Source: Chloracidobacterium sp. N
GTDB lineage: Bacteria; Acidobacteriota; Blastocatellia; Chloracidobacteriales; Chloracidobacteriaceae
Direction: 5' to 3'
Assembly (NCBI RefSeq): GCF_018304765.1
Contig: NZ_CP072643.1
Location: 248,001 to 312,000 of the forward strand
DNA length: 64,000 nt
Part shown: positions 9,977 to 56,013 of the stretch, piece by piece
How the letters are laid out: each line of letters opens with the position of its first letter
Position numbering within the stretch: position 1 is the first letter of the stretch
Program-made: the position numbers and the translations under genes
Notes under the pieces: generated by a model
The model's input: the letters and a program-made list of their open reading frames with translations, nothing else
What the model was told of the DNA's origin: nothing
Database searches by the model: none

Positions 9977-12441
9977 GCACCGCACTTCCCAGGTACCTAC
10001 TGGCAAAGTCGTACCCACAAACGAAGTTTCCGCAGCAACCGCCGGACTACGCCCTGCTCCTTCAGCACAACCGCGATGTGGCGCAAGCCTGCACGGCGCT
10101 GGTGGAAGTCATTGGCCGACTTGTCCTGGAGCGCGCCGGACTTACCGAAACCGACATTGAAGCCTTCAAAAAGGCCATGGCTGCCGTGGGTTGGTTTGAA
10201 GACCTTGGCAAAGCCAACAGCCATTTTCAGGCAATGGTGACGAAAGCGCCGCAACTCATCCAGCTCCTGCGCCACGAGACCCTTTCCGGTCTGCTGCTCT
10301 GGCAAAACAAAGCACTGCGCGAATGTCTCGAACCGGCTCTGGGTGACTGGTTTGTGCTTGCCCTCTGGGCGGCCATGGGCCATCACCGCAAGTTTGATTG
10401 CGACACCCAGGCTTCCGCAGCGCCCGCACTGACAGTCTGGCTGAATCATCCCGACTTCCAGCAGATGCTCATTGAGCTTGGCCAGAGCCTGGGGACGCAA
10501 ACGCTTCCCCCAACGTTCTCCGCACCGCTCATCATTGCTCCGGACAACCGCAACCCAAATGCGGTTTCAGCACGGCGCGCCCTGCAGGACCTGAAAGAAG
10601 ATTTTGATGGCCTCCGGGAGCAGCTTGCCCCGGAATGGTCAAAGCGCCTGGCGGTGATGAAGGCGCTTGGCATTGCAGCGGATGTGGCCGCCAGCGCCGT
10701 CGCCGCCCAGGGACAAAGCGCTGCCAATTACTCGCTGGATACTTTTGTCCGCCAAACCTTGGGACAGGTCGGACTCAAGGCAGCGGATTTTGATCAGCTC
10801 ATCGGCGAATGGGCGTGGAAGGCCACCGGGCAGCCGCGCCCTTCCGACGCACCCCAACTTCCGCCCGGCTTTGCTTTTCGTCCCTTTCAGTGCGAGGTGG
10901 CCGCTTCGGAACGTTTTGTCACACTGGCCTGCGCCGGCTGTGGTTCCGGCAAGAGTCTGGCGGCCTACCTGTGGGCGCAGGCGTGGCAACGGCGCACCGG
11001 GCAAACCAACTTCCGGCTCTTTTTCTGCCTGCCGACCACTGGGACGACGACCGAGCACTTCAAGGACTACGCCCTCGAAGCGGGACTTTCGGCCGCGCTG
11101 ACCCACTCACGTTCGACCGTTGACCTGAAAGCTCTGGCGGAAACGGCCGACCAGGAATCCGATGTGGACGCCAGCAACGCCGAGCGTGCCGCCCAGCGCG
11201 CCCTCGACGACCTGCGGGACAAAATCGAGGCGTTGTCCCTGTGGGACACCCCGCTGGTCGTCACCACGGCCGACACCGTGCTTGGACTGATGGCCAACGC
11301 CCGCCGGTCACTCTATGCCTTCCCGGCCATTGCCCTGAGTGCGATTGTCTTTGATGAAATCCATGCCTTTGATGACCGGCTGTTTGGGCATCTGCTGGCG
11401 TTCCTGCGGTTCTTTCCACGGCAGCCGGTGTTGCTGATGACGGCCTCCCTGCCCCAGCACCGGCTGGCGGCGCTGCAAAAGGTTCGCCCGGATTTGCAGA
11501 TCGTTGCCGGCCCGGCGGAATACGAACAGCTTCCCCGCTATAAACTCCGTTATCCCAGCAGCCCGGAAGAAGTCTGGCAGGCCGTCGCCGACTGTATCGC
11601 GCAGGGCGGCAAGGTGCTCTGGGTGCGGAACCGCGTCGAATGGGCCAACGAAACCTACGCGGACTGCCGGAAGCGTTTTCCACAGGTCGAGGTCAACGTC
11701 TATCACTCGCGGTTTCGCTACAAGGACCGCAGCCGGCTGCACCACTACGTCATCGGGAAGTTCAAGGGTAAAGATGCCCAGATTCTGGTCACAACCCAGG
11801 TGGCCGAAATGTCCCTTGACCTGTCGGCTGATCTGCTCATCACCGACATTGCCTCCGTCCCGGCGCTCATCCAGCGCATGGGGCGGGCCAACCGCCGGTC
11901 AACGCCACAGCATCCCCAGCCTCCCAGGCCCGTCCTCGTCTGCCCTCTTCCGCCGCAAGCAAACGAAAGGGATAACCCGGCGCTGCCTTATGAAGCAGAA
12001 GATATTGCCACTGCCGAAGGTTGGCTTGCACATCTGCTGGCCCTTGAGAAACCCCTGAGTCAGCGCGACTTGGCTGACGCCTTTGGAAGCCTCTCACCGG
12101 GAAAAGACTTCGATGTTGAGCAGGCCTGGAAAGCGGCGTGTTTTGTTTCGGGGGGGTGGGAAACCCGTCCCGGCATGACGCGCAGCGAAGGCTACACGGT
12201 CAACGTCATCCTCGAAGCTGACTGGAAAGCGTACGGCCAGTCGGAGCCAGGCCGCGACTGGCTCATCGAGCACGAGGTTGCCATCCCGTTTCGGCCCGAA
12301 GTTCTGCGGTGGGGAACGGTGGGAAGCCGTCGCCTCGCGCCGGCCGAACGGGTGGCGTACGACTTCAACCCAGAGACAAAGAAAGGAACCGGAGCAAGAT
12401 GGGTCAGCGCACAACCGGCTACCAACTGCCAAATCCTCTAG
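9973..12441 (+). CDS. cas3: CRISPR-associated helicase-nuclease Cas3
   Basis: A protein of 822 residues, the DNA-degrading effector recruited by Cascade. The N-terminal HD-nuclease part has His32, the DLGKAN motif, RHE (His101) and GHH (His137-His138). The usual His-Asp of the HD motif reads Glu76-Asp77 (FEDLGKAN). The superfamily 2 helicase follows: Walker A CAGCGSGKS (about 318-326), DEIHAFD (about 461-467), motif III TASLP, and motif VI QRMGRANRR (about 633-641). The start is a GTG overlapping the cas6 stop, with GGAGGG just upstream. The end overlaps cas8 by 43 bases. The family assignment is secure; the Glu in place of His in the metal site is unusual. Confidence 0.93.
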   Translation: MSTALPRYLLAKSYPQTKFPQQPPDYALLLQHNRDVAQACTALVEVIGRLVLERAGLTETDIEAFKKAMAAVGWFEDLGKANSHFQAMVTKAPQLIQLLRHETLSGLLLWQNKALRECLEPALGDWFVLALWAAMGHHRKFDCDTQASAAPALTVWLNHPDFQQMLIELGQSLGTQTLPPTFSAPLIIAPDNRNPNAVSARRALQDLKEDFDGLREQLAPEWSKRLAVMKALGIAADVAASAVAAQGQSAANYSLDTFVRQTLGQVGLKAADFDQLIGEWAWKATGQPRPSDAPQLPPGFAFRPFQCEVAASERFVTLACAGCGSGKSLAAYLWAQAWQRRTGQTNFRLFFCLPTTGTTTEHFKDYALEAGLSAALTHSRSTVDLKALAETADQESDVDASNAERAAQRALDDLRDKIEALSLWDTPLVVTTADTVLGLMANARRSLYAFPAIALSAIVFDEIHAFDDRLFGHLLAFLRFFPRQPVLLMTASLPQHRLAALQKVRPDLQIVAGPAEYEQLPRYKLRYPSSPEEVWQAVADCIAQGGKVLWVRNRVEWANETYADCRKRFPQVEVNVYHSRFRYKDRSRLHHYVIGKFKGKDAQILVTTQVAEMSLDLSADLLITDIASVPALIQRMGRANRRSTPQHPQPPRPVLVCPLPPQANERDNPALPYEAEDIATAEGWLAHLLALEKPLSQRDLADAFGSLSPGKDFDVEQAWKAACFVSGGWETRPGMTRSEGYTVNVILEADWKAYGQSEPGRDWLIEHEVAIPFRPEVLRWGTVGSRRLAPAERVAYDFNPETKKGTGARWVSAQPATNCQIL

Positions 12442-17925: not shown

Positions 17926-20900
17926 GTGCAAAAATCTTTGATGCCGAAAGGCGTTGATCACCTCACGGCGTGTGCGGCGTTGATTGATCGGCTGGGTGCA
18001 AAAATCTTTGATGCCGAAAGGCGTTGATCACCGGTCATTGAGACTATCGTTAACACAGGCGCGCGGTGCAAAAATCTTTGATGCCGAAAGGCGTTGATCA
18101 CGCTGGCGTTCCGTTGGGCTGTTCGGGAACGCTTCAGTGCAAAAATCTTTGATGCCGAAAGGCGTTGATCACTACGCCTGGCGTGGGTCTTTGCTGTTCC
18201 GCTTCTCGTGCAAAAATCTTTGATGCCGAAAGGCGTTGATCACGTGTCAACACCTAATCGCAGAAAAGTTACAGTGGAGTGCAAAAATCTTTGATGCCGA
18301 AAGGCGTTGATCACTTTCGACAGTGTACTTCCCACTAGACAGCCGGACAAGTGCAAAAATCTTTGATGCCGAAAGGCGTTGATCACTGCATAAGTTTCAC
18401 ACTGCCTGCCACGCTGCTGGGGTGCAAAAATCTTTGATGCCGAAAGGCGTTGATCACTTGGTAGTCCCGGAGTTGGAGAGGGGGGGTGTGTGGTGCAAAA
18501 ATCTTTGATGCCGAAAGGCGTTGATCACGCGAAAACTGGTCTCCGCGCGCGCGCCAGAAGTCGGTGCAAAAATCTTTGATGCCGAAAGGCGTTGATCACA
18601 TTACCGATCCACCGGCAATCTTTTCCCCGCCGCTGTGCAAAAATCTTTGATGCCGAAAGGCGTTGATCACAAGGTACGGGCTTACGTTCCAACCCTGGAG
18701 TACACGTGCAAAAATCTTTGATGCCGAAAGGCGTTGATCACACCGCGCCGGTTTTCCCATTCGAGCCGAACTGGGCGGTGCAAAAATCTTTGATGCCGAA
18801 AGGCGTTGATCACCGCGCGTGTGCGTGTGCGTGCGCGAGGCGCGTCCCGGGTGCAAAAATCTTTGATGCCGAAAGGCGTTGATCACTATGACGCACCCAA
18901 CCCCTCGGCTTCCACCTGATGTGCAAAAATCTTTGATGCCGAAAGGCGTTGATCACTGATTTCGGCGTTGCTGCGCCCCAAAACCAACGACCGTGCAAAA
19001 ATCTTTGATGCCGAAAGGCGTTGATCACTGGACGGCACGACGATTCTGGTCAATCCCGGCACTGGTGCAAAAATCTTTGATGCCGAAAGGCGTTGATCAC
19101 CTGGTCAGCCGTATCCGCGAGCTTGTAGGCTGCGCTAGTGCAAAAATCTTTGATGCCGAAAGGCGTTGATCACAGCGCGTATGAAAACGGCATGAGCGCG
19201 AGCGAAAGAGTGCAAAAATCTTTGATGCCGAAAGGCGTTGATCACTACACGCCCTACGCGCGAGCCGAGTTTGTTCGGGCGGTGCAAAAATCTTTGATGC
19301 CGAAAGGCGTTGATCACTCGTCCCATTGTTCGGGCGTTAGTTTTGGTACTCTGTGCAAAAATCTTTGATGCCGAAAGGCGTTGATCACAGCGCGCCTGTC
19401 TTCGCCTTCGAGCCGAACTGGGCAAAGTGCAAAAATCTTTGATGCCGAAAGGCGTTGATCACGACTGCTTGCGCCACAGCAGTTCGGCGGCTCGTGGTGT
19501 GCAAAAATCTTTGATGCCGAAAGGCGTTGATCACTTACGTCCCCCGCGTCAATTTCAGCCAAGTTACGGTGCAAAAATCTTTGATGCCGAAAGGCGTTGA
19601 TCACCACGCGGCTTCAATGCCGCGCTGCTGGAGTTCTTCGGTGCAAAAATCTTTGATGCCGAAAGGCGTTGATCACCTTCTGACGAGTTGGCGAAGAAAC
19701 GAACCGTCGAAGTGTGCAAAAATCTTTGATGCCGAAAGGCGTTGATCACCTCGCGCGCCAACAACGGCTGCACCACCGCCCATAAAGTGCAAAAATCTTT
19801 GATGCCGAAAGGCGTTGATCACGTCAACGGGACGTATTACCGCACGCGCTTCGGCAGTGCAAAAATCTTTGATGCCGAAAGGCGTTGATCACGCGGTTTT
19901 TTCCCGACAGCGCCGGCGGCAAAGAACGAATGTGCAAAAATCTTTGATGCCGAAAGGCGTTGATCACCGCGCGCGGATTTCGTCCGGCGTCATTTTTTCC
20001 AACGGTGCAAAAATCTTTGATGCCGAAAGGCGTTGATCACTTGCACGTCCCGGCTTGGTGGTAATTGCCGGGGCGAGTGCAAAAATCTTTGATGCCGAAA
20101 GGCGTTGATCACACCGAGTTTTTTGACACGCCCGCTGGGCTTTATACGGGTGCAAAAATCTTTGATGCCGAAAGGCGTTGATCACGCAGAAACGGCGAGT
20201 GCGCAATAAAAGGCGCGTCGTGCAAAAATCTTTGATGCCGAAAGGCGTTGATCACAGCGCAAGGTACGCCGATTCATTCTTGGAAAGATTGTGCAAAAAT
20301 CTTTGATGCCGAAAGGCGTTGATCACCTCCCGCCGTCCACTCCCGTCTGTCCCGATTGCCGGTGCAAAAATCTTTGATGCCGAAAGGCGTTGATCACAAA
20401 TGACTGATGCGCAGCATAAAGAACTTGTGGAGGTGCAAAAATCTTTGATGCCGAAAGGCGTTGATCACCCGGGCTTCCAATTGCCCCAAGAAATCCGCGC
20501 GATTCGTGCAAAAATCTTTGATGCCGAAAGGCGTTGATCACTGTCACGCCGTACTGTGCGACGAACCGGCGAACTGGTGCAAAAATCTTTGATGCCGAAA
20601 GGCGTTGATCACACGCGCCGGAGGAGATTGTTCAAGTAGCTTCCGGGTGCAAAAATCTTTGATGCCGAAAGGCGTTGATCACTGATACGTCGCCGCCGTC
20701 TTCGTAGCTGCCGTAAGAGTGCAAAAATCTTTGATGCCGAAAGGCGTTGATCACTAGAGCTGTACTTGCGCCCAGTGGTCGGGGCGCGCAGTGCAAAAAT
20801 CTTTGATGCCGAAAGGCGTTGATCACCGCCGGTTGCGTCTGACAGCAACGCGGCAGGCGGGTGCAAAAATCTTTGATGCCGAAAGGCGTTGATCACGATG

Positions 20901-23900
20901 ACGCCTGAAAAGTTTGAGGAAGAATTCCCGGAGTGCAAAAATCTTTGATGCCGAAAGGCGTTGATCACCTGAACGTGCCGCAGGGAAACTTCACGGCGCG
21001 CAGTGCAAAAATCTTTGATGCCGAAAGGCGTTGATCACGTCAGCTTGGCGTTCAATATCGGTCTCGGCGCGTTTGTGCAAAAATCTTTGATGCCGAAAGG
21101 CGTTGATCACACGCGCCGGAGGAAATCGTGCAGATAGCCACAGGGTGCAAAAATCTTTGATGCCGAAAGGCGTTGATCACTCTGGGCTGGGATGCTTGGG
21201 GACGCCAGTGGAAGGTGCAAAAATCTTTGATGCCGAAAGGCGTTGATCACAATCGCGTGGACGGGCTACTTGCGCCACAGCAGTTTGGCGGTGCAAAAAT
21301 CTTTGATGCCGAAAGGCGTTGATCACTTCCGCAGACAGAGAATATCCAGCCGGACGGTGATAAGTGCAAAAATCTTTGATGCCGAAAGGCGTTGATCACC
21401 CGACGGCGCGCCAGTGCTTGCGCCGGTGGCTGACGTGCAAAAATCTTTGATGCCGAAAGGCGTTGATCACTTACGCCGTGTGGGGCTGGCGACCACGCAA
21501 GCCTCGTGCAAAAATCTTTGATGCCGAAAGGCGTTGATCACCTGGGACAAACCGCGTGGACGGGCTGCTCGCGCCGCAGTGCAAAAATCTTTGATGCCGA
21601 AAGGCGTTGATCACAAGGCGGTCTCCCGCCGGTCATCCCAGCTCCAGTCGTGCAAAAATCTTTGATGCCGAAAGGCGTTGATCACGTCACACCCGGACGG
21701 CGAAACGGGGGCAGGTTATCACCGGTGCAAAAATCTTTGATGCCGAAAGGCGTTGATCACTAAACTCGAATTTCGTTTTCCATTTTTCCAGCTACCGGTG
21801 CAAAAATCTTTGATGCCGAAAGGCGTTGATCACGAATCGCAAGGCGTTGTGGTGACTGTCTATCGCGAAGTGTGCAAAAATCTTTGATGCCGAAAGGCGT
21901 TGATCACCTGGGCTGGCGGCGTCCTTGTTGTTGCGCAAAGCAGTGCAAAAATCTTTGATGCCGAAAGGCGTTGATCACAGCGCGATACGTGACTTCCCAA
22001 CGCGCCCGAAACGGTGCAAAAATCTTTGATGCCGAAAGGCGTTGATCACTACTTATAGTCGGAATAAGTCTGGTAGTACTCAGCCGTGCAAAAATCTTTG
22101 ATGCCGAAAGGCGTTGATCACTCAACGACAGCCTGCGCCCCTGAGCGCGTGTCGTCAAAGTGCAAAAATCTTTGATGCCGAAAGGCGTTGATCACTGGCC
22201 GCTGGATTCAGGGTTGCCGGCGTGGGAATGTGCAAAAATCTTTGATGCCGAAAGGCGTTGATCACACGCGCCAGAGGAAATCGTGCAAGTAGCTTCCGGG
22301 TGCAAAAATCTTTGATGCCGAAAGGCGTTGATCACCTCACCCACGTCAAGGAACTCATTGAACAGAACCTTGTGCAAAAATCTTTGATGCCGAAAGGCGT
22401 TGATCACTGAAATTATCTACCGCCGAGCCTGCCGAAATCCTAGCGTGCAAAAATCTTTGATGCCGAAAGGCGTTGATCACCGCGGCTGATGCCCTCTATC
22501 GCTGTTAAGCTGTCGTGCAAAAATCTTTGATGCCGAAAGGCGTTGATCACTACACGTCAGCGCTGTCGGGCGAAATCCCGCGCTGGTGCAAAAATCTTTG
22601 ATGCCGAAAGGCGTTGATCACTAAAGCAGGTTTGGTTTTTAGTTTTTTCCAGCTACGTGCAAAAATCTTTGATGCCGAAAGGCGTTGATCACACACCCTC
22701 CAGTACAAACTCAACGTCAGGTCAATGTGCAAAAATCTTTGATGCCGAAAGGCGTTGATCACCGCCAGCGCGCGTCGAAAGCGGCTTGCGCGTTACGGTG
22801 CAAAAATCTTTGATGCCGAAAGGCGTTGATCACTTCTCCATAGGGACATTTTCCAGCCACTTGGCGGGTGCAAAAATCTTTGATGCCGAAAGGCGTTGAT
22901 CACTTGACACCTTGCTTGCTGTGCGCAACGCCGTGGAGGTGCAAAAATCTTTGATGCCGAAAGGCGTTGATCACATCACGCAGGCGCAAAAGGCGCACAT
23001 CTACGAAAGTGCAAAAATCTTTGATGCCGAAAGGCGTTGATCACCGGCGTAGCGACAGCGCCATATCGCCCCAAAATAGGTGCAAAAATCTTTGATGCCG
23101 AAAGGCGTTGATCACAAGTTTCTTTTTCCTTTCCCAGCCCGGCACGGTCGTGCAAAAATCTTTGATGCCGAAAGGCGTTGATCACCTTGTACAATTCTTT
23201 ATTGACGAGGAAGAAGTCGAAGTCGTGCAAAAATCTTTGATGCCGAAAGGCGTTGATCACCTGGGCTGCCGGAAGGTGACAATGCCGTGACGGAGCGGTG
23301 CAAAAATCTTTGATGCCGAAAGGCGTTGATCACTTGCTTCCTACGAGTCCTGGCGTGCCGCCGCCGCCGGTGCAAAAATCTTTGATGCCGAAAGGCGTTG
23401 ATCACTAACCCTGGTGTGGGGAAAACAGCGGGTCAGGGTGTGCAAAAATCTTTGATGCCGAAAGGCGTTGATCACGTTTCCTCCTCCTTTTTTTCTTTTT
23501 TTCCTGTCCGGTGCAAAAATCTTTGATGCCGAAAGGCGTTGATCACTGAGAAACAGCCAGCGGGCCGTCGGGTGCGCTGCGTGCAAAAATCTTTGATGCC
23601 GAAAGGCGTTGATCACCCGCGTCAAACGAGCGCGTAGGGTTTACGGTGGATCTGGTGCAAAAATCTTTGATGCCGAAAGGCGTTGATCACCCGCCGGTGG
23701 AAGCCATCCAGCGGTGGATCGTGCTGGTGCAAAAATCTTTGATGCCGAAAGGCGTTGATCACTTGACCAACGCCAACGTCCTTACCACAGGATTTGAGTG
23801 CAAAAATCTTTGATGCCGAAAGGCGTTGATCACACAGAATCCTTGTATTGCTTGGTGCGGTCAATAAAGTGCAAAAATCTTTGATGCCGAAAGGCGTTGA

Positions 23901-26900
23901 TCACGCGCATTTTGGGCGGCAAGCCTGTAGGCTGATATTGTGCAAAAATCTTTGATGCCGAAAGGCGTTGATCACTTCTGCAATCCCTAAGACGCGCTTG
24001 GCTTCAGTGGTGCAAAAATCTTTGATGCCGAAAGGCGTTGATCACGGTGAACTATCTGCCGCCGCACACCGGGCGCATCAGGTGCAAAAATCTTTGATGC
24101 CGAAAGGCGTTGATCACCACAATATCTTGTGGCGGCGGCTGATCCAACGCTGAGTGCAAAAATCTTTGATGCCGAAAGGCGTTGATCACCGCGAACTCGC
24201 CAAGCAACTCCAGACGGGCGAGATTGTGCAAAAATCTTTGATGCCGAAAGGCGTTGATCACACCGAGCTTCTTGACGCGCCCGCCGGGCTTTACACTGGT
24301 GCAAAAATCTTTGATGCCGAAAGGCGTTGATCACCGCGGGTCGTCCGCCTCGGTGTCGCTCACCGGGCGGTGCAAAAATCTTTGATGCCGAAAGGCGTTG
24401 ATCACTAAAGCTGCACCTGCGCCCAGTGGTCGGGGCGCGCGGTGCAAAAATCTTTGATGCCGAAAGGCGTTGATCACCCGAATTGCGCTTGCCGCGGCGG
24501 CACGCTGCGCCTGTATTGTGCAAAAATCTTTGATGCCGAAAGGCGTTGATCACGCACGCGCTGGGCTTGCTTGGGGGCAGCAGGGGAGTGTGCAAAAATC
24601 TTTGATGCCGAAAGGCGTTGATCACAGACCGCCGGAACCGGATTTTGTTCGAGCTTGGCGGGTGCAAAAATCTTTGATGCCGAAAGGCGTTGATCACCCT
24701 GCCGGTGGCGCTAAAATCGCTTATAGGGCTTTGTGCAAAAATCTTTGATGCCGAAAGGCGTTGATCACTAAAACCGGTTTGATTTTTGGTTTTTTCCAGC
24801 TACGTGCAAAAATCTTTGATGCCGAAAGGCGTTGATCACGGATTGACGCAAGCGCAAAAGGCGCATATCTACGAAAGTGCAAAAATCTTTGATGCCGAAA
24901 GGCGTTGATCACGCCAAGCTCTTTTCGCCCTACGCTGGCGCTGTACAGTGCAAAAATCTTTGATGCCGAAAGGCGTTGATCACTTTTTCCCCAGGCTTTC
25001 TTCCTCACTGGTTCTGCAGTGCAAAAATCTTTGATGCCGAAAGGCGTTGATCACATTACGTCGGCGCGGTGGCGCAAAACCCAGTACGGGGTGCAAAAAT
25101 CTTTGATGCCGAAAGGCGTTGATCACCGCGTCCAGCAGGACTTGCCAGTTGTTTGGTGGAGTGTGCAAAAATCTTTGATGCCGAAAGGCGTTGATCACTA
25201 CTGGACAGACAGGTAGTGTCCTGTGCCGCTTTTGTGCAAAAATCTTTGATGCCGAAAGGCGTTGATCACCCCGACCTGACTTTTCTTTGGGGCGGGCAGC
25301 CGTTTGTGCAAAAATCTTTGATGCCGAAAGGCGTTGATCACTTTACGCTGAAGGGCGCGGTGTTGCGCGATGAGAACGTGCAAAAATCTTTGATGCCGAA
25401 AGGCGTTGATCACATATTGGTCTCGGTTTCAATCGAGCACGAGCGCGCGGTGCAAAAATCTTTGATGCCGAAAGGCGTTGATCACGACAGCGCTGGAAGT
25501 GAAATCGCCGGATGGAAGGCTGTGCAAAAATCTTTGATGCCGAAAGGCGTTGATCACCCGATATGATCCTGCGTCACGTTGACGCGGTGTTGTGTGCAAA
25601 AATCTTTGATGCCGAAAGGCGTTGATCACGGGCGGGGCTAGAACGGCAACTCGTCAACCCACCAGTGCAAAAATCTTTGATGCCGAAAGGCGTTGATCAC
25701 AGGCTTGACGCGCTTACGTGTCAGGTACGGATGGTCGTGCAAAAATCTTTGATGCCGAAAGGCGTTGATCACGCAACCCTGGAAACAATCGAAAGCAAGA
25801 GTAGCGGTGCAAAAATCTTTGATGCCGAAAGGCGTTGATCACCTCGCACTGTGCTGTTACTTTTTCTGGCAGAATAGGTGCAAAAATCTTTGATGCCGAA
25901 AGGCGTTGATCACGTTAATCACGATTCTCTCACCCGCCGCGCCCATCGTGCAAAAATCTTTGATGCCGAAAGGCGTTGATCACACTTTCCCGTTGAGGAC
26001 GATGGCGAAGAAGACACGGTGCAAAAATCTTTGATGCCGAAAGGCGTTGATCACCCGCTGCCTAGCCCCTCTTGGAAGGCCCTAGACAGGTGCAAAAATC
26101 TTTGATGCCGAAAGGCGTTGATCACCGCCTTCAACTCCGTCCGGGAGCAAGTGGGCAAGCTGTGCAAAAATCTTTGATGCCGAAAGGCGTTGATCACACC
26201 ACCTGATGGGCGCGGCGGGAGAAAGAATCGTCGTGCAAAAATCTTTGATGCCGAAAGGCGTTGATCACATCCGGACACTGGTGAATCACGCCTGAAGCTG
26301 CGCACAGGTGCAAAAATCTTTGATGCCGAAAGGCGTTGATCACTGGGACTTCGGGCGTAATCCGCGCCCGGCCATCTGCAGTGCAAAAATCTTTGATGCC
26401 GAAAGGCGTTGATCACTGTTAAGATGCCGGCAGGCTCGGTGGCAAAAAGGTGGTGCAAAAATCTTTGATGCCGAAAGGCGTTGATCACAACTTGCGGCGT
26501 TGCGCTATTCTTATCAGCGGGGTAGGTGCAAAAATCTTTGATGCCGAAAGGCGTTGATCACCAGAGCAACGCTATCTTCGCGCCCTTCATCAAAGGTGCA
26601 AAAATCTTTGATGCCGAAAGGCGTTGATCACGAACACTTTGCGCATCTGCGTCTGTTGACGCGCGCGTGCAAAAATCTTTGATGCCGAAAGGCGTTGATC
26701 ACAAAACGACAGCCTACGTACCGGTTTCCACCTATACGTGCAAAAATCTTTGATGCCGAAAGGCGTTGATCACCTGACGGCGTGTGCCGCGTTGATTGAC
26801 AGGTTAGGTGCAAAAATCTTTGATGCCGAAAGGCGTTGATCACAGTTGCGGGTTACAATTGAAGGGGATTTTACCGCTTGTGCAAAAATCTTTGATGCCG

Positions 26901-47529: not shown

Positions 47530-48936
47530 TCACCACTGAAACTGCTCAATCGTGCCCAGGGCCAAAGCCCAGTTGACGCGCGTCATGACGTGCTGTGCCA
47601 GCGCCTGAATCCGTGCCGTGCGGGCCTGACTGAGCGCCGACTGCGCCCGGATGACCTCCAGGTTGTCGGCCACACCGGCGGCAAAGCGTTCTTCGGCAAG
47701 TTCGACTTCACGCTGCGCCAGTGTCACAGCCTGCTCGGCTGCGGCAACCTGCTCCGCTGCGGCCGACAGCAGGACCACGGCCAGCCGTACCTCCTGCTCG
47801 ACCTGCCGCTGGACATCGGCAACCTCCAACTCACGCTGGCGGGCCCGGCTCTTTTCGGCCACCAGCCGGCCAAACGAAGCGCCGCCGTTGAACACCGGAA
47901 CGTTGACCCGCACCCCGAACGTGCGCGTCGGCAGGGCAAAGCGGTTTGGGCGCACGCCGTTCAGGCCATAGTCAGCGAAAACTTCAACCGAGGGGAGATG
48001 TTCGGCCGCCACGGCCGCCTGTTCCCGGCTGGCCGCTTCGTACTGAAGCCGGGCCAGGACGACTTCAAGCCGCTGCTGCAGCGCGGCCGACTGTGCGGCG
48101 GCCACGTCCGGCGTGGATACGGGGACGAACCGCAGCTCGCCGGTCAGGGTCAGTTCGGCGTCGGCCGGTACGGCCATGAGCCGCCGCAACCGCGCCTGGG
48201 ACTGCTCCAGCTCAACCTGCGCCTGCGCCCGGCGGGCGTCTTCCTCAGCCAGGCGGACGCCGGCCCGAACGACATCGAGCTGGGTGGCCAGTCCGGCCGC
48301 GCGCTGTTCCTGCGCCAGATGCACCAGGGCGCGCGCCGTCACGATTTCACGCTCGGCGGCGCTGACCAGCGATTGTGCGCGCAGCACATCCAGATAGGCC
48401 AGCAGGACTTCGCCGGTGATCTGTTGCCGCACGAGCTGCGCTTCCACTTCAGCGGCCTGGCGGGCCGTCTGCGTGGCGCGATGGCGCTGCACGGCCGACC
48501 AGTCAAACAACTGCTGCGTAAGCTGCAAGCGGGCGTCAAACGTGTCAAAGACGATGATGGAACTGATGCCCGGCAGGAAACCGCCCAATCCCTGTGCGGC
48601 CAGGTTGATGGCGGAATTGGCGCGTGTCACCACGCCACTGAGGTTGGGCAGCAGCGCCGCACGGGCTTCGAGGGCGCGTCCCCTGGCTTCCTCCCGGCGC
48701 TCGGCGGCAAGGCGCACCGAAGTTTCGCCGGCCAGCGCCATTTCCACGGCGCGCGCCGGGGACAGTGGACGTGGGGCGTGACCGCCAGCCGGCGGATACA
48801 CGACGCCCGGCACCGGCAGACGGCGTACCGGCGGCAGGTGCTGCGCCGGGGCGCTGTTGCCGGACAGGGCCACCCCAATGATGACAGGCAGCCAGACGTG
48901 TCGGGACAGGAACATGGCCGTTTCTTGCCTCCACAT
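47530..48936 (-). CDS. TolC-family outer-membrane efflux protein
   Basis: A protein of 468 residues with a signal peptide (FLSRHVWLPVIIGVALSGNSAPAQ) and two outer-membrane-efflux repeats: LSPARAVEMALAGETSVRLAAERREEARGRALEARAALLPNLSG, and a second with a long alpha-helical stretch AEQVAAAEQAVTLAQREVELAEERFAAGVADNLEVIRAQSAL, in which GVADNLEVI is the classic TolC hinge. It forms the channel of the efflux system. The ATG at 48936 has GAGGAGG five bases before it; the ATG at 48915 is a possible alternative. It is 10 bp downstream of the RND gene on the same strand. Confidence 0.9.
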   Translation of the reverse strand: MWRQETAMFLSRHVWLPVIIGVALSGNSAPAQHLPPVRRLPVPGVVYPPAGGHAPRPLSPARAVEMALAGETSVRLAAERREEARGRALEARAALLPNLSGVVTRANSAINLAAQGLGGFLPGISSIIVFDTFDARLQLTQQLFDWSAVQRHRATQTARQAAEVEAQLVRQQITGEVLLAYLDVLRAQSLVSAAEREIVTARALVHLAQEQRAAGLATQLDVVRAGVRLAEEDARRAQAQVELEQSQARLRRLMAVPADAELTLTGELRFVPVSTPDVAAAQSAALQQRLEVVLARLQYEAASREQAAVAAEHLPSVEVFADYGLNGVRPNRFALPTRTFGVRVNVPVFNGGASFGRLVAEKSRARQRELEVADVQRQVEQEVRLAVVLLSAAAEQVAAAEQAVTLAQREVELAEERFAAGVADNLEVIRAQSALSQARTARIQALAQHVMTRVNWALALGTIEQFQW

Positions 48937-48946
48937 GTTTACCTCC

Positions 48947-51900
48947 TCAGTCGTGGGCAGCCGATTTCACGGACGGCTCACTGCCCAGGCTTCGGCGTGG
49001 CCGGAACCAGCGGCGGCGGGCGAGCCAGGCCGCCAGATCGTCAAACAGGGCATAGAAGGCCGGCACGGCCAGCAGCGTCAGCAGCAGACACAGCGATTGG
49101 CCGCCAATGACGAGAACGGAAATCGAACGGTTGCTGCTTGCGCCGGGCCCACGTGAAAGCGCCAGCGGGAACATGCCGGCGACAAAGGCCAGCGTGGTCA
49201 TCAGGATGGGGCGCAGCCGGTCACAGTTCGCCTGAATGATGGCCGCATCGCGCGCCCAGCCGGCCCGCCGCAGGCCGTTCATGTGGTCAATCTGCAGGAT
49301 GGCGTTCTTTTTGACGACGGCAAACAGCACGAGGACCCCCAGCCCGACAAAGAGATTGACGTTCTGCCCAACAGCCAGCAGGGAGACGAGGCCAAACGGG
49401 AGCGCCAGCGGGAGCGTCAGCAGAATGGTCACGGGATGGATGAACGACTCGAACTGGGCGGCCAGAACGACATACATCAGGACGAAAGTCAGCCCGAAAG
49501 CGATGGCAAAGTAGTAGGCGGATTCCGCCATGTCTTTGGCATCCCCGGCAAAGACCCGCTCGTAGCCGGAGGCAAGTTCCAACGCCTGGAAGGCGGCATC
49601 AATCTGTTCGGTGGCCGCCGAAAGTGAATACCCCGCGGCGACATTCGCCAGAACGGTGACATAGCGCTGGCGGTTGAGGCGCTCGATGGCCACCGGCCCC
49701 GTCCCTTCGACAAGGCGCACCAGGCCGGACAGTGGCACGGGCGCACCCTTGGCCGTCGGCACGGCAATTGCCCCCAGACGTTCCGGCAGGCTGCGAAAGG
49801 CATCCGTTGCGCGCAGCCGGATGCGCGGCCGGTCAGCGGCCGCTCCGGCGTCGGCCGCCAGCGTACCGGCTTCCACCCCGGCCACCAGCAGGTTGAGCGT
49901 GGTGGCCACGTCTTCGACGGCGACGCCGAGATCAGCCGCCCGCGCCCGGTCAACAACCAGGCGCAGTTCCGGCGCGCCCAGCACGAGCGTCGAGTTGACA
50001 TCCACCACCCCCGGCATCCGGCGCATGGCTTCCATGAGACGTTCGGCGTACAGCGCCAGCGGCTCCAGTTCGGGGCCGCGCAACACATACTGGATCGTCG
50101 CGTTTTCATAGCCCCCGCCGGCAAAGGGCGTAATCGGCTGCACACTGGTACGCACCTGTGCGGCATAGGGCCGCAGACGTTCGCGTGCCTGTCCGATGAG
50201 TTCCACCTGCGAGGCGGTGCGTTCCGCCAGAGGTCTCAGCTTGACGTAGATGTAGCCACGGGAAGCCACGGGTGGATCGCCGCTTCCGGCGGTCGTCAGG
50301 GTGTGGGCGACGCCGGGCAGGGTACGCAGATCGGCCGCGATGCGCTCAACCAGCAGGCTCATGGCAGCGAGGGACGTTCCTTCCGGGGCGCGGAGCGTCA
50401 CCTCGAACTCCGATTCGTCATCCTGGGGGATGAAGTCCTTGCCGATGACGATAAACAGCGGAACAACGGAAGCCGCCACCCCCAGGCACGTCAGGGCCAC
50501 CCATCCGCGCCGACGAACTGACCAGGCCACCAGCGGCCCGTAATAGCGTGCCGTCCAACCGGCGGCAGCGGGCCGGTCCCGGTGCGAAACCGCCATGCGG
50601 GCGCACAGCATGGGCGTCAGCGTGAAGGAAACGAACATGGAAATGGCGACGGCGGCCGCGGCCGTGATGCCAAACGGCGCGAGGAAGCGTCCGACGATGC
50701 CGCCCATAAAGGCCGTCGGCAGGAAGACGGCCAGCAGCGACAGGGTTGTGGCCAACACGGCCAGTCCGATTTCCCGCGTCGCCGCGACTGCGGCTTCAAA
50801 CGGCGGCAGGCCTTTTTCGCGGATGAACCGCTCGATGTTTTCGAGCACGATGATGGCATCGTCAATGACAACGCCCACCATGAGCGTCAGCGCCAGCAGG
50901 GTGATGGTGTCCAGCGTGTAGCCAAACGTGGCCATGACGCCAAACGCGCCAATGATGGACGTTGGGATGGCAAGGGCGGCAATGAGGGTCAGCCCCAGGC
51001 GCCGGAGAAACACCAGCACCACAAGACATGCCAACAGGCTCCCTTCAAGCAGGTGGGTTTTGACATCGTTGACAGCGGCTTCGATGAAGATGGACTTGTC
51101 GCCGACTTCGGTCACGGTGACTTCCGGGGGCAGACTGGCACGGATTTCGGTCAGCCTGGCCTTGACGGCGGCAGCCAGCGCCACAGCATTGCCACCGGCC
51201 CGTTTGGAGACCTGCACGATGACGGCCGAACGTCCGTCCAGCGCCGTGATGGTACGGGGCAGCGGCGTGGTTTCCTCGACGTGGGCGACCTCCTCCAGGC
51301 AGACGGGATAGGTCTGGCGGTAGGCCAGCGGCAACCGGCGCAGGGTGGCCGCATCCGGGACTTTGCCTGGGGCGCGCAGGGCCGTTTCGCGCGCGCCCTG
51401 CTCCAGCGTCCCGGCCGGGGCGTCACGGTTCTGGCGTTCGATGGCGGCAACGGCGTCGAGTGGCGTCAGGTCGTAAGCGCGCAGACGCAGCGGATCAAGT
51501 GTGACACGCACTTCGGGCTGCACCCCACCGAGCAGCGCCACCCGCCCGACGCCATCGAGGGTTTCCAGTTGTTCCTTGATCTGGCGTCGTGCTAGACGTG
51601 TCGTTTCAACCAGCGGATAGGGAGCGGACACGGCCAGCCGGATGACCGGCGAGGCATTGGTTTCAAATTTCTGAACCGTAGGCGGTTCAATGGTTTTGGG
51701 CAGTTCGGGGATGACAAGGTTGACCTTGTCGCGGACTTCCTGGGCCGCCACGTCGAAGTCCTTGTTGAGTGAAAACTGGATATTGACCTGCGAGATGCCT
51801 TCAACTGAAGTGGAGCGGATTTCTTTGACGCCGCTGATGGCATTGACGGCCGACTCGACTTTTTCCGTGATGTCGCGCTCGATTTCGACGGCCGGTGCGC

Positions 51901-52060
51901 CGGGATTGGTGACGACGACGGTGACAACCGGAAAATCAACATTGGGAAATCTGTCCACGCCAAGTGCTCCGTAGCCAACCAGCCCAAAGACGGCAATGGC
52001 CACGATGAGCATGGTTGTGAAAACCGGACGCCGGATACAGACTTCAGCCAGCCACTGCAT
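48947..52060 (-). CDS. HAE1-type RND efflux pump (AcrB-like)
   Basis: A protein of 1037 residues starting CIRRPVFTTMLIVAIAVFGLVGYGALGVDRFPNVDFPVVTVVV, the usual N-terminal helix and periplasmic start. The fourth helix has VGVVIDDAIIVLENIERF with the paired Asp residues of drug-exporting (HAE1) pumps. TALDGRSAVIVQVSKRAGGNAV and FIPQDDESEFEVTLRAPEGTSL are in the porter loops, and the last helices are standard. It should expel hydrophobic compounds by proton antiport with the fusion protein coded at 53959 and TolC at 47530. An oppositely oriented AT-rich gene lies directly in front of its start codon, separating it from its fusion-protein gene. Confidence 0.93.
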   Translation of the reverse strand: MQWLAEVCIRRPVFTTMLIVAIAVFGLVGYGALGVDRFPNVDFPVVTVVVTNPGAPAVEIERDITEKVESAVNAISGVKEIRSTSVEGISQVNIQFSLNKDFDVAAQEVRDKVNLVIPELPKTIEPPTVQKFETNASPVIRLAVSAPYPLVETTRLARRQIKEQLETLDGVGRVALLGGVQPEVRVTLDPLRLRAYDLTPLDAVAAIERQNRDAPAGTLEQGARETALRAPGKVPDAATLRRLPLAYRQTYPVCLEEVAHVEETTPLPRTITALDGRSAVIVQVSKRAGGNAVALAAAVKARLTEIRASLPPEVTVTEVGDKSIFIEAAVNDVKTHLLEGSLLACLVVLVFLRRLGLTLIAALAIPTSIIGAFGVMATFGYTLDTITLLALTLMVGVVIDDAIIVLENIERFIREKGLPPFEAAVAATREIGLAVLATTLSLLAVFLPTAFMGGIVGRFLAPFGITAAAAVAISMFVSFTLTPMLCARMAVSHRDRPAAAGWTARYYGPLVAWSVRRRGWVALTCLGVAASVVPLFIVIGKDFIPQDDESEFEVTLRAPEGTSLAAMSLLVERIAADLRTLPGVAHTLTTAGSGDPPVASRGYIYVKLRPLAERTASQVELIGQARERLRPYAAQVRTSVQPITPFAGGGYENATIQYVLRGPELEPLALYAERLMEAMRRMPGVVDVNSTLVLGAPELRLVVDRARAADLGVAVEDVATTLNLLVAGVEAGTLAADAGAAADRPRIRLRATDAFRSLPERLGAIAVPTAKGAPVPLSGLVRLVEGTGPVAIERLNRQRYVTVLANVAAGYSLSAATEQIDAAFQALELASGYERVFAGDAKDMAESAYYFAIAFGLTFVLMYVVLAAQFESFIHPVTILLTLPLALPFGLVSLLAVGQNVNLFVGLGVLVLFAVVKKNAILQIDHMNGLRRAGWARDAAIIQANCDRLRPILMTTLAFVAGMFPLALSRGPGASSNRSISVLVIGGQSLCLLLTLLAVPAFYALFDDLAAWLARRRWFRPRRSLGSEPSVKSAAHD

Positions 52061-52113
52061 AGCCTTGTACCAATTGATTTATTTGTTGAACTACAGGATT
52101 AGAGTAAATCAAA

Positions 52114-53955
52114 ATGATTATCTGCTTTCTGACTTGGATTTTTTTATCTTTGATTGGTTCATTAATCTTTATATCTTTTTTTTCATTCCTCATTGAAAAA
52201 AAAGATATATCATATATGCTTGTCAATTATTTTTTTATAGCTATATTTGCGGGGTCTTTAATTCTAGCCAACTTTTTGCTTATAATTTCTTTCATAACCC
52301 CTCTAAGATTAAATTGCCTTTTGGGAATTATACTGATTTTTATCATAAGAATATTCTGTATTTTTGATACAGAATACTTGAGAGAGACACTAAAAATCTT
52401 TCTCGTCAAAATTCACATTTTGGCAATTTCTTCTGTAATTACATTTTTCTTTATAAATATACCTTACGAAAGCACTGTTGATATGCTTATCTATCACATC
52501 CAACTCTCGAGATATTTACATGACTATGGTTTAGTGAAGGGTCTTGCATTAATTTCAGCACAACTTGGACATCAATCAATATGGTTTGCCCTGCCAGCCC
52601 CACTTGAAGATATTCTCAACGTTTATTCAAGTTTGATAGTTGGTGCTTTTTCTTACTTCCTATCAATCTGTCAACTTCTACAAAGTCTTTATAACATTAA
52701 GGAAGGAAAGAAAGAGGAAGTTTTCTTAGCTTCATACCTTCTCTTTTGTCTAACATCACTAAGTATCATGGTACAACCAACTTCAGTTGAAATGGCAATT
52801 AGCTTTTTACTTGGAACATCCATTTTCTTCTGCATAAAAACAATTACAAAGCCACATAGCTACAATGAATACAAAGAAAATAAAAGCTATCTTACTTTTT
52901 TTTGGATAACATTAGTACTATCGTCAAGTTCCCTTGGACTAAAATTAACTTCAATTCCCATTTTTCTAATTGGTGTATTTTTATTCATACATAATCTTAA
53001 GTTTTCTAAGATTCAAAATTTTGCCAATCAATCTATCAAATTTTCTATGCTTTTTATATTCTTTTTCTTGCCCAAAACTTTTGCACTAATCTTAGCTTCT
53101 GGTTGTCCTTTTTATCCATCAAGTTTTCTTCATGTCAAAGTACCTTGGTTTGTAGGAGAAGAATTTTCAAGAACACTTGTAAGACATATCTCTGCCTATG
53201 CCAAATTTGGCACACTTGATTACCCGGAGCATGTGTCTAACTGGTTTTCTCTGTGGTCCAGCAGGTATGAGGGGAAATCAGTTGTATTTTTTATGTATTT
53301 CTTTATCTTTTTGCTACCGTGTACTTTGTTTTTTCTGAGATATAAAATTTTAGAGCATTATAAATTACACATAGCTGCTAAACTCCCCCTGCTTTTGGGT
53401 ATAATATATACATTTTCACTAGCTCCAAGTGCCAGGTTCATTCTGCCATATATAATTGGAATAGCTGCACTGCATGTTTTTTTTATTTCTCTTGAGAATA
53501 TAAATATTTCCTTATTTGCTATGATACTTTCATTATCTGCTGCAGAGTCCCTCTACAGCGGAATAAAAAGTACAGCAGCTAATTTTGTATTATTATTCCT
53601 TGTAGCAGTTTACTATTTTATAAATGGCAAATATCTAACCACCCTTCTAAAATTTGTGTCTCTGAAAAACTTCCTACTAAACTCTTCATACTACATAACA
53701 CTTAGTCTATATTCATTCACAGAGAATCCACTTATTCTGCCTGACAAATCATCTTTGGTAAGAAACTTTAAGAAGATCGAAATCAACTCAATTAACTTCT
53801 TCTGTCCAACAAGTCACCCTACTTGTGGCTACTCACCACTACCCTGCTACCAAGGAAAACTTTGGTTTGAGATGCCACTTGAAGAAGTTGAATTGATTGA
53901 TAAAGAAAAAGGTATTGCCGGTGGCTTCAAAAGAAAAAACTACAGCCCGGAGTAG
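52114..53955 (+). CDS. AT-rich multi-pass membrane protein, possible GT-C-type or LIC_10190-like
   Basis: A protein of 613 residues with about 10 to 13 hydrophobic helices (for example FLSLIGSLIFISFFSFLI and PLRLNCLLGIILIFIIRIFCIF), and a loop (PYESTVDMLIYHIQLSRYLHDYGLVKGLALISAQLGHQSIWFAL) that recalls a family of bacterial membrane proteins with D...YH...R near the first loop, as in GT-C glycosyltransferases and LIC_10190-like proteins. This resemblance is from memory and not certain. Codons are A/T-rich throughout, very unlike the G+C-rich genes on both sides. It is opposite in strand to the efflux operon, its stop is three bases from the end of the fusion-protein gene, and its start is 53 bp from the RND start. 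Recent horizontal transfer is likely. Confidence 0.7.
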   Translation: MIICFLTWIFLSLIGSLIFISFFSFLIEKKDISYMLVNYFFIAIFAGSLILANFLLIISFITPLRLNCLLGIILIFIIRIFCIFDTEYLRETLKIFLVKIHILAISSVITFFFINIPYESTVDMLIYHIQLSRYLHDYGLVKGLALISAQLGHQSIWFALPAPLEDILNVYSSLIVGAFSYFLSICQLLQSLYNIKEGKKEEVFLASYLLFCLTSLSIMVQPTSVEMAISFLLGTSIFFCIKTITKPHSYNEYKENKSYLTFFWITLVLSSSSLGLKLTSIPIFLIGVFLFIHNLKFSKIQNFANQSIKFSMLFIFFFLPKTFALILASGCPFYPSSFLHVKVPWFVGEEFSRTLVRHISAYAKFGTLDYPEHVSNWFSLWSSRYEGKSVVFFMYFFIFLLPCTLFFLRYKILEHYKLHIAAKLPLLLGIIYTFSLAPSARFILPYIIGIAALHVFFISLENINISLFAMILSLSAAESLYSGIKSTAANFVLLFLVAVYYFINGKYLTTLLKFVSLKNFLLNSSYYITLSLYSFTENPLILPDKSSLVRNFKKIEINSINFFCPTSHPTCGYSPLPCYQGKLWFEMPLEEVELIDKEKGIAGGFKRKNYSPE

Positions 53956-53958
53956 CCT

Positions 53959-55293
53959 TCATCTATCTGTACTGGAAACAGCTTTCCCGTCCTCCAGCTT
54001 CTCCAGACCGGTCACAACGACACGCTCACCGGCTTCCAGACCGGACCGGATTTCGACTTCCTCCCCAATGCCTTCCCCCACCTGAACCACTCGCAGCCGC
54101 GCCCGATCCCCCTCAACGACATACGCCACCTGCGCGCCCAGACCCGGATGCCACCGGACAGCCGCGCGCGGGGCCATCACCCACGGCGTACGCTCCGGCA
54201 GCAGCAGCCGCGCCGTGACGAACATCCCCGGACGCAACCGCTGCTCCCTATTCGACACGATGACCTCAACGCGCAGACGGCGCGCATCAGCCTCCACCAG
54301 CGGGCGAATCGTCGTGACCTCGCCACGAATGACCCAGTCGGGATAGGCGTCGGTTGTGGCCTCGACCGCCTGCCCGCGCCGGACCCGCCCGGCTTCCCCG
54401 GCTGGTACCTGAAGCTCCAGCTTCAACCGTTCCAGTACCACCAACTCCATCAGGGGCTTCTCCGGCGTGACATACTCGCCCACATTGGCAAACCGCTCGG
54501 CCACATACCCGGCAAAAGGCGCCCGTACGGTGGTGTCTTCCACGGCTTTCTGCGCCAGTGCCACGGCCGCCCGCGCTTCGGCAATGCGCGCCTGTGCCGC
54601 CCGTAAACCGGCATATTCGGCCCGCAACCCGTCCAGGGTGGCCGCGTAGCGGCGGCGCGCCGCCTGAACCTGCGCCTGCGCGGCTTCCAGCCGGGTGCGG
54701 GCTTCGTCGAGCACCGCGCGGGTGATGTTGTCATGGCGGGCCAGCCGCTCGTAGCGTTCCAGGGTGGCCCCGGCCAGCCGCGCCTCGGCTTCCGCTGCGG
54801 TCAATGCCGCCTGGGCCGCCTCGGCCTCTGGCGTCTGACGTGGGTCAAACACCTCGCCGGAGAGTCCCAGCCGGGCCCGGAGCTGGGCTTCGGCCGCCTC
54901 AGCCTGTGCCAGAGCCGCTTCGGCCTGTGCCAGCCGCTGCCGCGCTTCGCGGTCATCGAGTCGCGCCAGCACCTGCCCTTCCCGTACCACCGCGCCCACA
55001 TCCACCGGGATGTCCACCACCTTCCCCATTGCCGCCGAAGCCACTGCCGACTGCCGCCACGGGACAACGTTTCCCGTCGCCAGGATGGACTGCGGGCGCA
55101 TCCGCACCTGCACGCGCGCCACCGTCACGGGCGTTGGCACTTCCGTTGCGGCCGATGCCTGGTTTTGGGCTGGACGCTGACACCCACCCCCCAGAACCAA
55201 CGCCACCAGACACAGCCCGCCTACAACCCAGGCCGCTATGCCATTGTCACCGCATCGGCACACTGAAAGCCGCTCCCCTTCCCTGCGCCCCAT
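53959..55293 (-). CDS. Membrane fusion protein of the RND efflux system (HlyD/AcrA family)
   Basis: A protein of 444 residues. A lipoprotein-like signal (AAWVVGGLCLVALVLGGGCQRPAQ, with Cys at the end of the lipobox) is followed by RPQSILATGNVVPWRQSAVASAAMGKVVDIPVDVGAVVREGQVLARLDD, the biotinyl-lipoyl domain. A coiled-coil hairpin, VRAPFAGYVAERFANVGEYVTPEKPLMELVVL and a beta-barrel (GEVTTIRPLVEADARRLRVEV) follow. The ATG at 55293 comes directly after the TetR stop; an earlier ATG at 55338 lies within tetR. It should form a complex with the RND pump coded at 52060, but the AT-rich gene separates the two. Confidence 0.9.
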   Translation of the reverse strand: MGRREGERLSVCRCGDNGIAAWVVGGLCLVALVLGGGCQRPAQNQASAATEVPTPVTVARVQVRMRPQSILATGNVVPWRQSAVASAAMGKVVDIPVDVGAVVREGQVLARLDDREARQRLAQAEAALAQAEAAEAQLRARLGLSGEVFDPRQTPEAEAAQAALTAAEAEARLAGATLERYERLARHDNITRAVLDEARTRLEAAQAQVQAARRRYAATLDGLRAEYAGLRAAQARIAEARAAVALAQKAVEDTTVRAPFAGYVAERFANVGEYVTPEKPLMELVVLERLKLELQVPAGEAGRVRRGQAVEATTDAYPDWVIRGEVTTIRPLVEADARRLRVEVIVSNREQRLRPGMFVTARLLLPERTPWVMAPRAAVRWHPGLGAQVAYVVEGDRARLRVVQVGEGIGEEVEIRSGLEAGERVVVTGLEKLEDGKAVSSTDR

Positions 55294-55294
55294 G

Positions 55295-55921
55295 TCACGC
55301 CCCTGCCATTTCCGTACCGGTGCGGCCGGGTGCTGCACTCCAGGCCAGGATCAGGTCACACACCTGCTGCCGTTGGCGGCCGACGGGCGGCGCCAGGCCA
55401 AAGCCTTCGGCAAAGTAGATGCCATCGGCGGCAAACCGGACAGCCGTGGCCGTCACTTCATCCACACCATCGGACACCAGCAGCCGATGCCAGCGGTCAT
55501 AGGCCGTTTGAATCAGTCCCAGCAGTTCGGGGTTGACGGCCAGCGCCGCCAGAAAACTCGCCAGATCGCCCTGTCCCAGACCCAAGGTCAACGACTCGTT
55601 CGGATCGACTTCGGCAAAGGAAGCCCGTACGTAAGCCCGCAGCCAGCGCCCCGGCTTTTCCGGCTCTGGATCACGGGCATACTCCCGCGCCATGGCGCGA
55701 TCCCATTCGGCAACAAACGTCTCAATCAGCGCCCGGATGAGCGCCTCCTTGGTTGGGAAGTGGTACAGCAGTCCCCCCTTGCTGACGCCGGCCGCACGTG
55801 CAACGGCGTCAAGGGTCAACCGGGGCAACCCCTCCCCGGCAACAACCCGCACCGTCGCGCGGAGCAGTTCATCCCGTGTCACCTGGGCTGGAGTTGCGGA
55901 TTTGGTTGAAGGACGACGCAT
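55295..55921 (-). CDS. TetR-family repressor of the efflux operon
   Basis: A protein of 208 residues. The N-terminal helix-turn-helix reads LTLDAVARAAGVSKGGLLYHFPTKEALIRALIETF (about 30-64), the classic TetR pattern with GLLYHF in the recognition helix, and a helical ligand-binding domain follows. It is the first gene of the operon and is coupled to the fusion-protein gene (TGA, one base, ATG). The promoter in front carries a near-perfect palindrome that is probably its operator, so autorepression is likely. The inducer is probably a substrate of the pump. Confidence 0.92.
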   Translation of the reverse strand: MRRPSTKSATPAQVTRDELLRATVRVVAGEGLPRLTLDAVARAAGVSKGGLLYHFPTKEALIRALIETFVAEWDRAMAREYARDPEPEKPGRWLRAYVRASFAEVDPNESLTLGLGQGDLASFLAALAVNPELLGLIQTAYDRWHRLLVSDGVDEVTATAVRFAADGIYFAEGFGLAPPVGRQRQQVCDLILAWSAAPGRTGTEMAGA

Positions 55922-55928
55922 GGCGCGT

Positions 55929-55957
55929 ACTGTACCGTCCAGACGGTACAGTGTCAA
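55929..55957 (-). promoter_or_regulatory. Promoter with embedded TetR operator
   Basis: On the minus strand, TTGACA (55957-55952) and TACAGT (55934-55929) are separated by exactly 17 bases, a good sigma-70-type promoter. A palindrome at 55929-55952 has 11-bp arms (ACTGTACCGTC and its complement) around a CA centre and overlaps both elements. A start of transcription about seven bases after the -10 would fall at or next to the tetR ATG (55921), so the mRNA may be nearly leaderless. Confidence 0.8.
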
Positions 55958-56013
55958 CCCGGACAACCACTGGCACAACCCCTGGTTGCAGTTGCGCCTG
56001 TGAAAACCCGCTT

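Follow-up and report, generated by a model that had tools for sequence, protein, structure and literature searches.

An AT-rich gene inside an RND efflux operon of Chloracidobacterium as a probable fixed-site hypervariable locus with recombining alleles

An AT-rich gene in the middle of an efflux operon of Chloracidobacterium is best explained, with a probability that we put at roughly 0.7, as a single-gene, fixed-site hypervariable locus, in which one ancient insertion was followed by the swapping of divergent alleles through homologous recombination and whose product would be a surface-glycan enzyme. The gene has probably been present at its site since before the sampled operon-keeping species split, and its sequence appears to have been swapped wholesale since then for very different versions, even between two near-identical genomes, which would fit a locus of surface variation. 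The window analysed here is a 64-kb stretch of the second chromosome (C2) of a two-contig genome of the genus, which we call G000; its features are listed in Table 1.

Results

The gene and its site

The gene is an intact open reading frame of 613 codons with a GC content of 32.4% and a GC3 of 29%, and it is the sole stretch clearly below 45% GC across the 64 kb; the neighbouring pump genes have 60–70% GC. A sequence-only reading of the window had described it as a gene of deviant composition for a multi-pass membrane protein, placed exactly between the genes for the membrane fusion protein (MFP) and the RND pump, and this description holds. Open reading frame coordinates also confirm the orientation and spacing given there: the gene is head-to-head and divergent with RND, 53 bp away, and tail-to-tail and convergent with MFP, 3 bp from its own stop codon. 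The operon runs TetR-MFP-RND-TolC on the minus strand, and the plus-strand gene separates RND and TolC from the TetR-side promoter, as had been noted. That reading had seen no marks of mobile elements, and we agree: no direct or inverted repeats flanking the gene were found, no mobile gene (recombinase) lies in the replaced tract or beside the gene, and the locus does not classify as a mobile-element insertion. Inside the 5' part of the gene, at 52170–52209, a perfect 16-nt inverted repeat with an 8-nt spacer is accompanied by T8 and A8 runs in coding sequence; it may be a site of slippage, or have arisen by chance where GC is low.

Table 1. Features of the operon and of the replaced tract (window coordinates)
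Feature	Position	Strand	Remarks
TolC-type outer membrane factor (OEP)	47530..48936	-	Pfam
RND pump gene (ACR_tran)	48947..52060	-	Pfam
RND 5' end, probable hitch-hiking flank	51895..52060	.	G000 versus G001: 19 differences over 166 bp
Replaced tract, without close DNA identity between G000 and G001	52061..53893	.	sharp ends: RND start codon; some 60 bp short of the gene's stop codon
Intergenic region between RND and the AT-rich gene	52061..52113	.	divergent, 53 bp; length and sequence differ in every relative
Hypervariable AT-rich gene	52114..53955	+	613-aa multi-pass membrane protein, LIC_10190 family (NF047510), GT-C-like predicted fold
Common 3' end of the gene (..DKEKGIAGGFKRKNYSPE)	53894..53955	+	DNA all but identical between G000 and G001
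Membrane fusion protein, MFP (HlyD_D23)	53959..55338	-	Pfam
TetR-family regulator	55295..56003	-	Pfam; start codon uncertain, open frame reaches 56191

Occupation of the same site in congeners

Six congeners were searched, one genome per species, and five of them keep the operon. An intact homologous AT-rich gene occupies the same place in the same orientation in three (G001, G002 and G006), and G003 has a homologue at the same site, split over two contig ends. In G005 the MFP–RND gap of about 170 bp contains the first 31 codons of the gene together with its KGIAGGFK tail, which rules out reading it as an uninterrupted operon; since both gene ends are there, the gene was lost by internal deletion. 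The sixth congener, G004, is uninformative as an empty site, as it lacks the operon altogether, with the former neighbours of the operon now separated by 25 kb. With a homologue in four congeners and a deletion scar in one, the gene is older than the species divergence; flank proteins at the occupied sites are down to about 60% identical among congeners. MFP and RND are contiguous in other RND operons from this genus and order (for example G010 C16, G012 C366 and G000 C2:154396-158722), and because related operons are contiguous both in and outside the genus, a single ancestral insertion is the simplest history.

Gene and pump have been lost independently of each other. G006 has had TolC and about two thirds of RND deleted and has kept an intact gene of 610 codons; a frameshifted RND remnant lies there beside the intact gene, MFP and TetR (C4:16001-36000; L013 about 10,960–12,000). 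As G006 kept the gene without the pump and G005 the pump without the gene, the two are separately dispensable.

Replacement of the allele between G000 and G001

The DNA flanking the gene is 98% identical between G000 and G001 on the left and 94% on the right, and the mean over the 400 kb of the second chromosome that served as a control comparison is 94.5%. The proteins encoded by the two AT-rich genes are 37.6% identical, no closer than other pairs (G002–G003 excepted). At fourfold sites the genomes are identical at 25 of 83 positions (30%) in the gene, versus 650 of 688 and 298 of 303 in the RND and MFP genes, respectively (94–98% in both pump genes), and G002 and G003 display a milder form of the same discordance (0.38 in the gene and 0.71 in RND). 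Because selection acting on the protein is unable to saturate synonymous sites, the two gene copies parted long before the G000 and G001 genomes did; the gene was replaced in one of the two lineages after their split, so that the present allele in one of them is a recent arrival.

The gene is discordant with conserved flanks and the breakpoints are defined, as in a locus swapped by recombination. Next to the replaced tract, divergence between G000 and G001 is 11% over the first 166 bp of RND and about 1% over the next kilobase; neither version of this 5' tract is nearer to the other species. At the other end, a KGxAGG motif in the 3' end of the gene is retained by all alleles. This pattern of tracts points to recombination from a Chloracidobacterium donor with the same operon, not far from the G000/G001 pair.

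A paralogue of the gene on chromosome 1 served as a control: its DNA is 97.8% identical in G000 and G001, with 0.0033 changes per site between its two copies in the tree versus 1.4 for the alleles. Within the 400 kb compared, the AT-rich gene is the only long gene replaced by a full-length divergent homologue; the remaining replaced segments carry different sets of genes in the two genomes. Two further places in the comparison deserve mention. A 156-aa open reading frame of 43% GC (G000 C2:386016-386483; L122) shares about 50% identity with its counterpart at the corresponding place in G001 and is possibly a second, smaller swapped gene, and the region at about 20,000–25,000 of the window (G000 C2:268,000-273,000) has low-identity, rearranged matches between the two genomes and is apparently repetitive.

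Ancestry and composition of the alleles

The five alleles form one clade with support of 100/100, which is star-like inside and sits on a long branch, with paralogues and cyanobacterial relatives outside; mutual protein identity is mostly 36–40%. Neither a GTDB genome scan nor 396 Acidobacteriota genomes revealed a member of this clade from outside the genus. A phage origin was rejected, as a search of viral contigs gave no relative. Because none of these three sources yielded a clade member, the allele pool is probably the genus itself, unsampled lineages included.

Alleles at the RND locus have 32–45% GC and a GC3 of 29–50%, and paralogues in the same genomes have a GC3 of at least 67%. The genus has 61% GC, and every allele stays AT-rich although long residence should have raised its GC. 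Polysaccharide genes elsewhere are typically low in GC. An intrinsically low GC of the protein family was ruled out, since Chloracidobacterium paralogues (60–70% GC) and cyanobacterial relatives carry host GC. The one exception to host-like GC among these relatives is a copy of 37% GC in G005 (C1 about 1,010,670; L019:10669-12405), located on the plus strand amid minus-strand glycosyltransferase and ABC-exporter genes. This second site repeats the layout of the RND locus, with an AT-rich gene in opposed orientation.

Predicted fold and function of the product

The product of the AT-rich gene is a member of the LIC_10190 family (NF047510), scoring 105.4 bits with a cut-off of 100 over model positions 2–423 of 424 (NCBIfam), and all five alleles match this family at E <1e-3. 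No Pfam domain matched the protein, and no literature on LIC10190 was found in the collection searched. An AlphaFold2 model of the 613-aa protein, built with 25 relatives, reached a pTM of 0.84, with residues 464–542 poorly modelled. The best 45 VIA-align rows are all GT-C-type proteins or complexes containing one (Z 10.5 to 5.3), a Z of about 10 being middling for a helical protein, and the fold match spans about 350 residues. These matches include ArnT, ALG12, EmbB, Pmt4, oligosaccharyltransferases, the GPI transamidase PIG-U and a C-mannosyltransferase, which we take to be members of the GT-C class. Foldseek likewise placed EmbB and ArnT on top, weakly (E >0.03) and with nothing at E ≤0.001, and a sequence search of solved structures gave no credible match and no detectable similarity to any solved GT-C protein. 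Because the Foldseek E-values are weak, we grade the GT-C fold as probable rather than proven.

In GT-C enzymes, catalytic acids lie in the loop after the first helix, which is the first extracytoplasmic loop. In the model, a nearly invariant Asp123 (at least 90% of 26 proteins) and an invariant His128 are found in the loop after helix 100–114, the first helix of the matched module. The first aligned residues pair 94 with ArnT 26 and 99 with ArnT 31, and by extrapolation, not from the superposition itself, Asp123 would correspond to about residue 55 of ArnT if no gap intervenes.

LIC_10190 relatives in cyanobacteria, and the AT-rich one in G005, adjoin genes for GT2 and GT4 glycosyltransferases, a Wzx-like flippase, a GDP-mannose-dehydratase-like enzyme and an ABC exporter pair. 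From the predicted fold and these polysaccharide-gene neighbours we infer that the product builds or decorates a surface glycan, and surface-glycan variation would be its likeliest role.

Transcription of the interrupted operon

The sequence-only reading had suggested that the pump might have changed from inducible to constitutive, for which we found no evidence: the window has no minus-strand promoter-like site above threshold, the 52061–52113 gap included, and no terminator between MFP and RND. Promoter and terminator scans were at about chance level in G000 and G001. Three of the four promoter-like sites in G001 and five of the seven in G002 lie on the minus strand, the totals being at the level of shuffles in G001 and about 2 sd above it in G002. 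Read-through across the antisense of the AT-rich gene would be the simplest possibility for the transcription of RND and TolC, and is a candidate for it.

Discussion

We propose that a gene for a GT-C-type membrane glycosyltransferase, AT-rich in composition, entered the MFP/RND junction once, before the operon-keeping sampled species diverged. Lineages would then have traded very divergent alleles through homologous recombination within conserved flanking sequence, namely the 5' end of RND on one side and the gene's own 3' end together with MFP on the other, which would leave close relatives with unrelated-looking versions of one gene. The enzyme may use a lipid-linked donor to add a sugar to a surface glycan, and the swapping of alleles may be favoured by selection for a varied cell surface, phage attack being one possible pressure. 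A more elaborate version, which strikes us as rather unlikely, is a trans-species system: several ancient alleles would be kept in the genus by balancing selection, probably through phage pressure, and swapped as a unit, with the opposed orientation making pump expression and surface modification mutually exclusive.

The sequence-only reading had taken the gene for a foreign insertion, and a base composition far from that of the host, together with the contiguous MFP and RND genes of other RND operons such as the three named above, is what one would expect if a foreign AT-rich gene had been inserted once, and recently, into an intact operon of the G000 lineage. Part of that view survives, as the allele in either G000 or G001 is recent. 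A one-off recent insertion, on the other hand, is largely refuted and very improbable, given a homologue or relic at the site in five of five operon-bearing congeners, the monophyly of the alleles and the lack of flanking repeats. An uninterrupted form of the operon, which that reading had expected in relatives, was found in none of these five, and the same arrangement and composition in relatives, which it had named as speaking against a recent arrival, is largely what they display. The search for AT-rich donors that it had proposed led to cyanobacterial proteins as the best outside relatives, with about 25% identity and host-like GC, and a recent foreign donor was rejected on these grounds. 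Several independent insertions at an MFP–RND hotspot, each from a different AT-rich donor, could account for the spread of allele GC from 32 to 45%, the identities of mostly 36–40% and the lack of amelioration to host GC. We nevertheless consider them unlikely, as the alleles form a clade that excludes all known relatives, have an identical orientation in every genome and a common C-terminal tail, are near-identical between G000 and G001 over the final 60 bp, and come with no integration signature.

Exchange itself could be dispensed with if the gene evolved extremely fast in place, through positive selection or local hypermutation, and the place, orientation and ancestor common to all alleles would follow directly. 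We regard this as distinctly improbable, however, because fourfold sites have reached saturation within the gene but are 94–98% identical just outside it, for which protein-level selection is insufficient, and because the change spans the whole gene, synonymous sites and indels included. Still harder to sustain is the idea that the gene works as part of the pump, as an accessory subunit or regulator, and is retained for that reason: its position within the operon is conserved in five species, but the loss of TolC and two thirds of RND beside an intact gene in G006, the opposite loss in G005, and a fold and family that point to glycan synthesis leave it hardly any likelihood.

If the hypervariable-locus explanation is true, surface type in this genus of phototrophs from hot springs can be told from a single cassette. 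Isolates of Chloracidobacterium from one spring exist (PMC8245765), and with these, allele exchange, phage selection and persistent AT-richness in GC-rich hosts would become directly testable. The locus also cautions against taking every AT-rich gene of a GC-rich genome for a recent arrival, for here the site is old and the allele new.

Comparison with known systems

All five RND-locus alleles match the model of the LIC_10190 family (NF047510), but their proteins constitute a long-branched clade of their own, about 25% identical to cyanobacterial members, and their genes are AT-rich and hypervariable whereas nearly all other members seen carry host GC. With the GT-C glycosyltransferases (ArnT, PMT, ALG, Emb) the protein would share a predicted multi-pass fold, and its conserved Asp123 and His128 lie in a loop that may correspond to the one with catalytic acids in those enzymes; it differs from them in having no detectable sequence similarity, and its sugar-transfer activity is a prediction. 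O-antigen and capsule loci vary surface polysaccharides by recombination between conserved flanks. They resemble the RND locus in that the genes swapped among relatives are divergent and AT-rich and encode membrane enzymes for making polysaccharides, while the flanks are conserved, the surface role of the RND-locus gene being the predicted part of this likeness. Unlike them, the RND locus comprises one gene, placed antisense inside an unrelated efflux operon and with no polysaccharide cluster around it. In the noncontiguous operon, or excludon, an opposing gene lies inside an apparent single operon (PMC7154746), and the RND locus similarly has an opposed gene within an apparent operon and, in this window, no terminator between the two halves; it differs in that co-transcription of the halves is hypothetical here.
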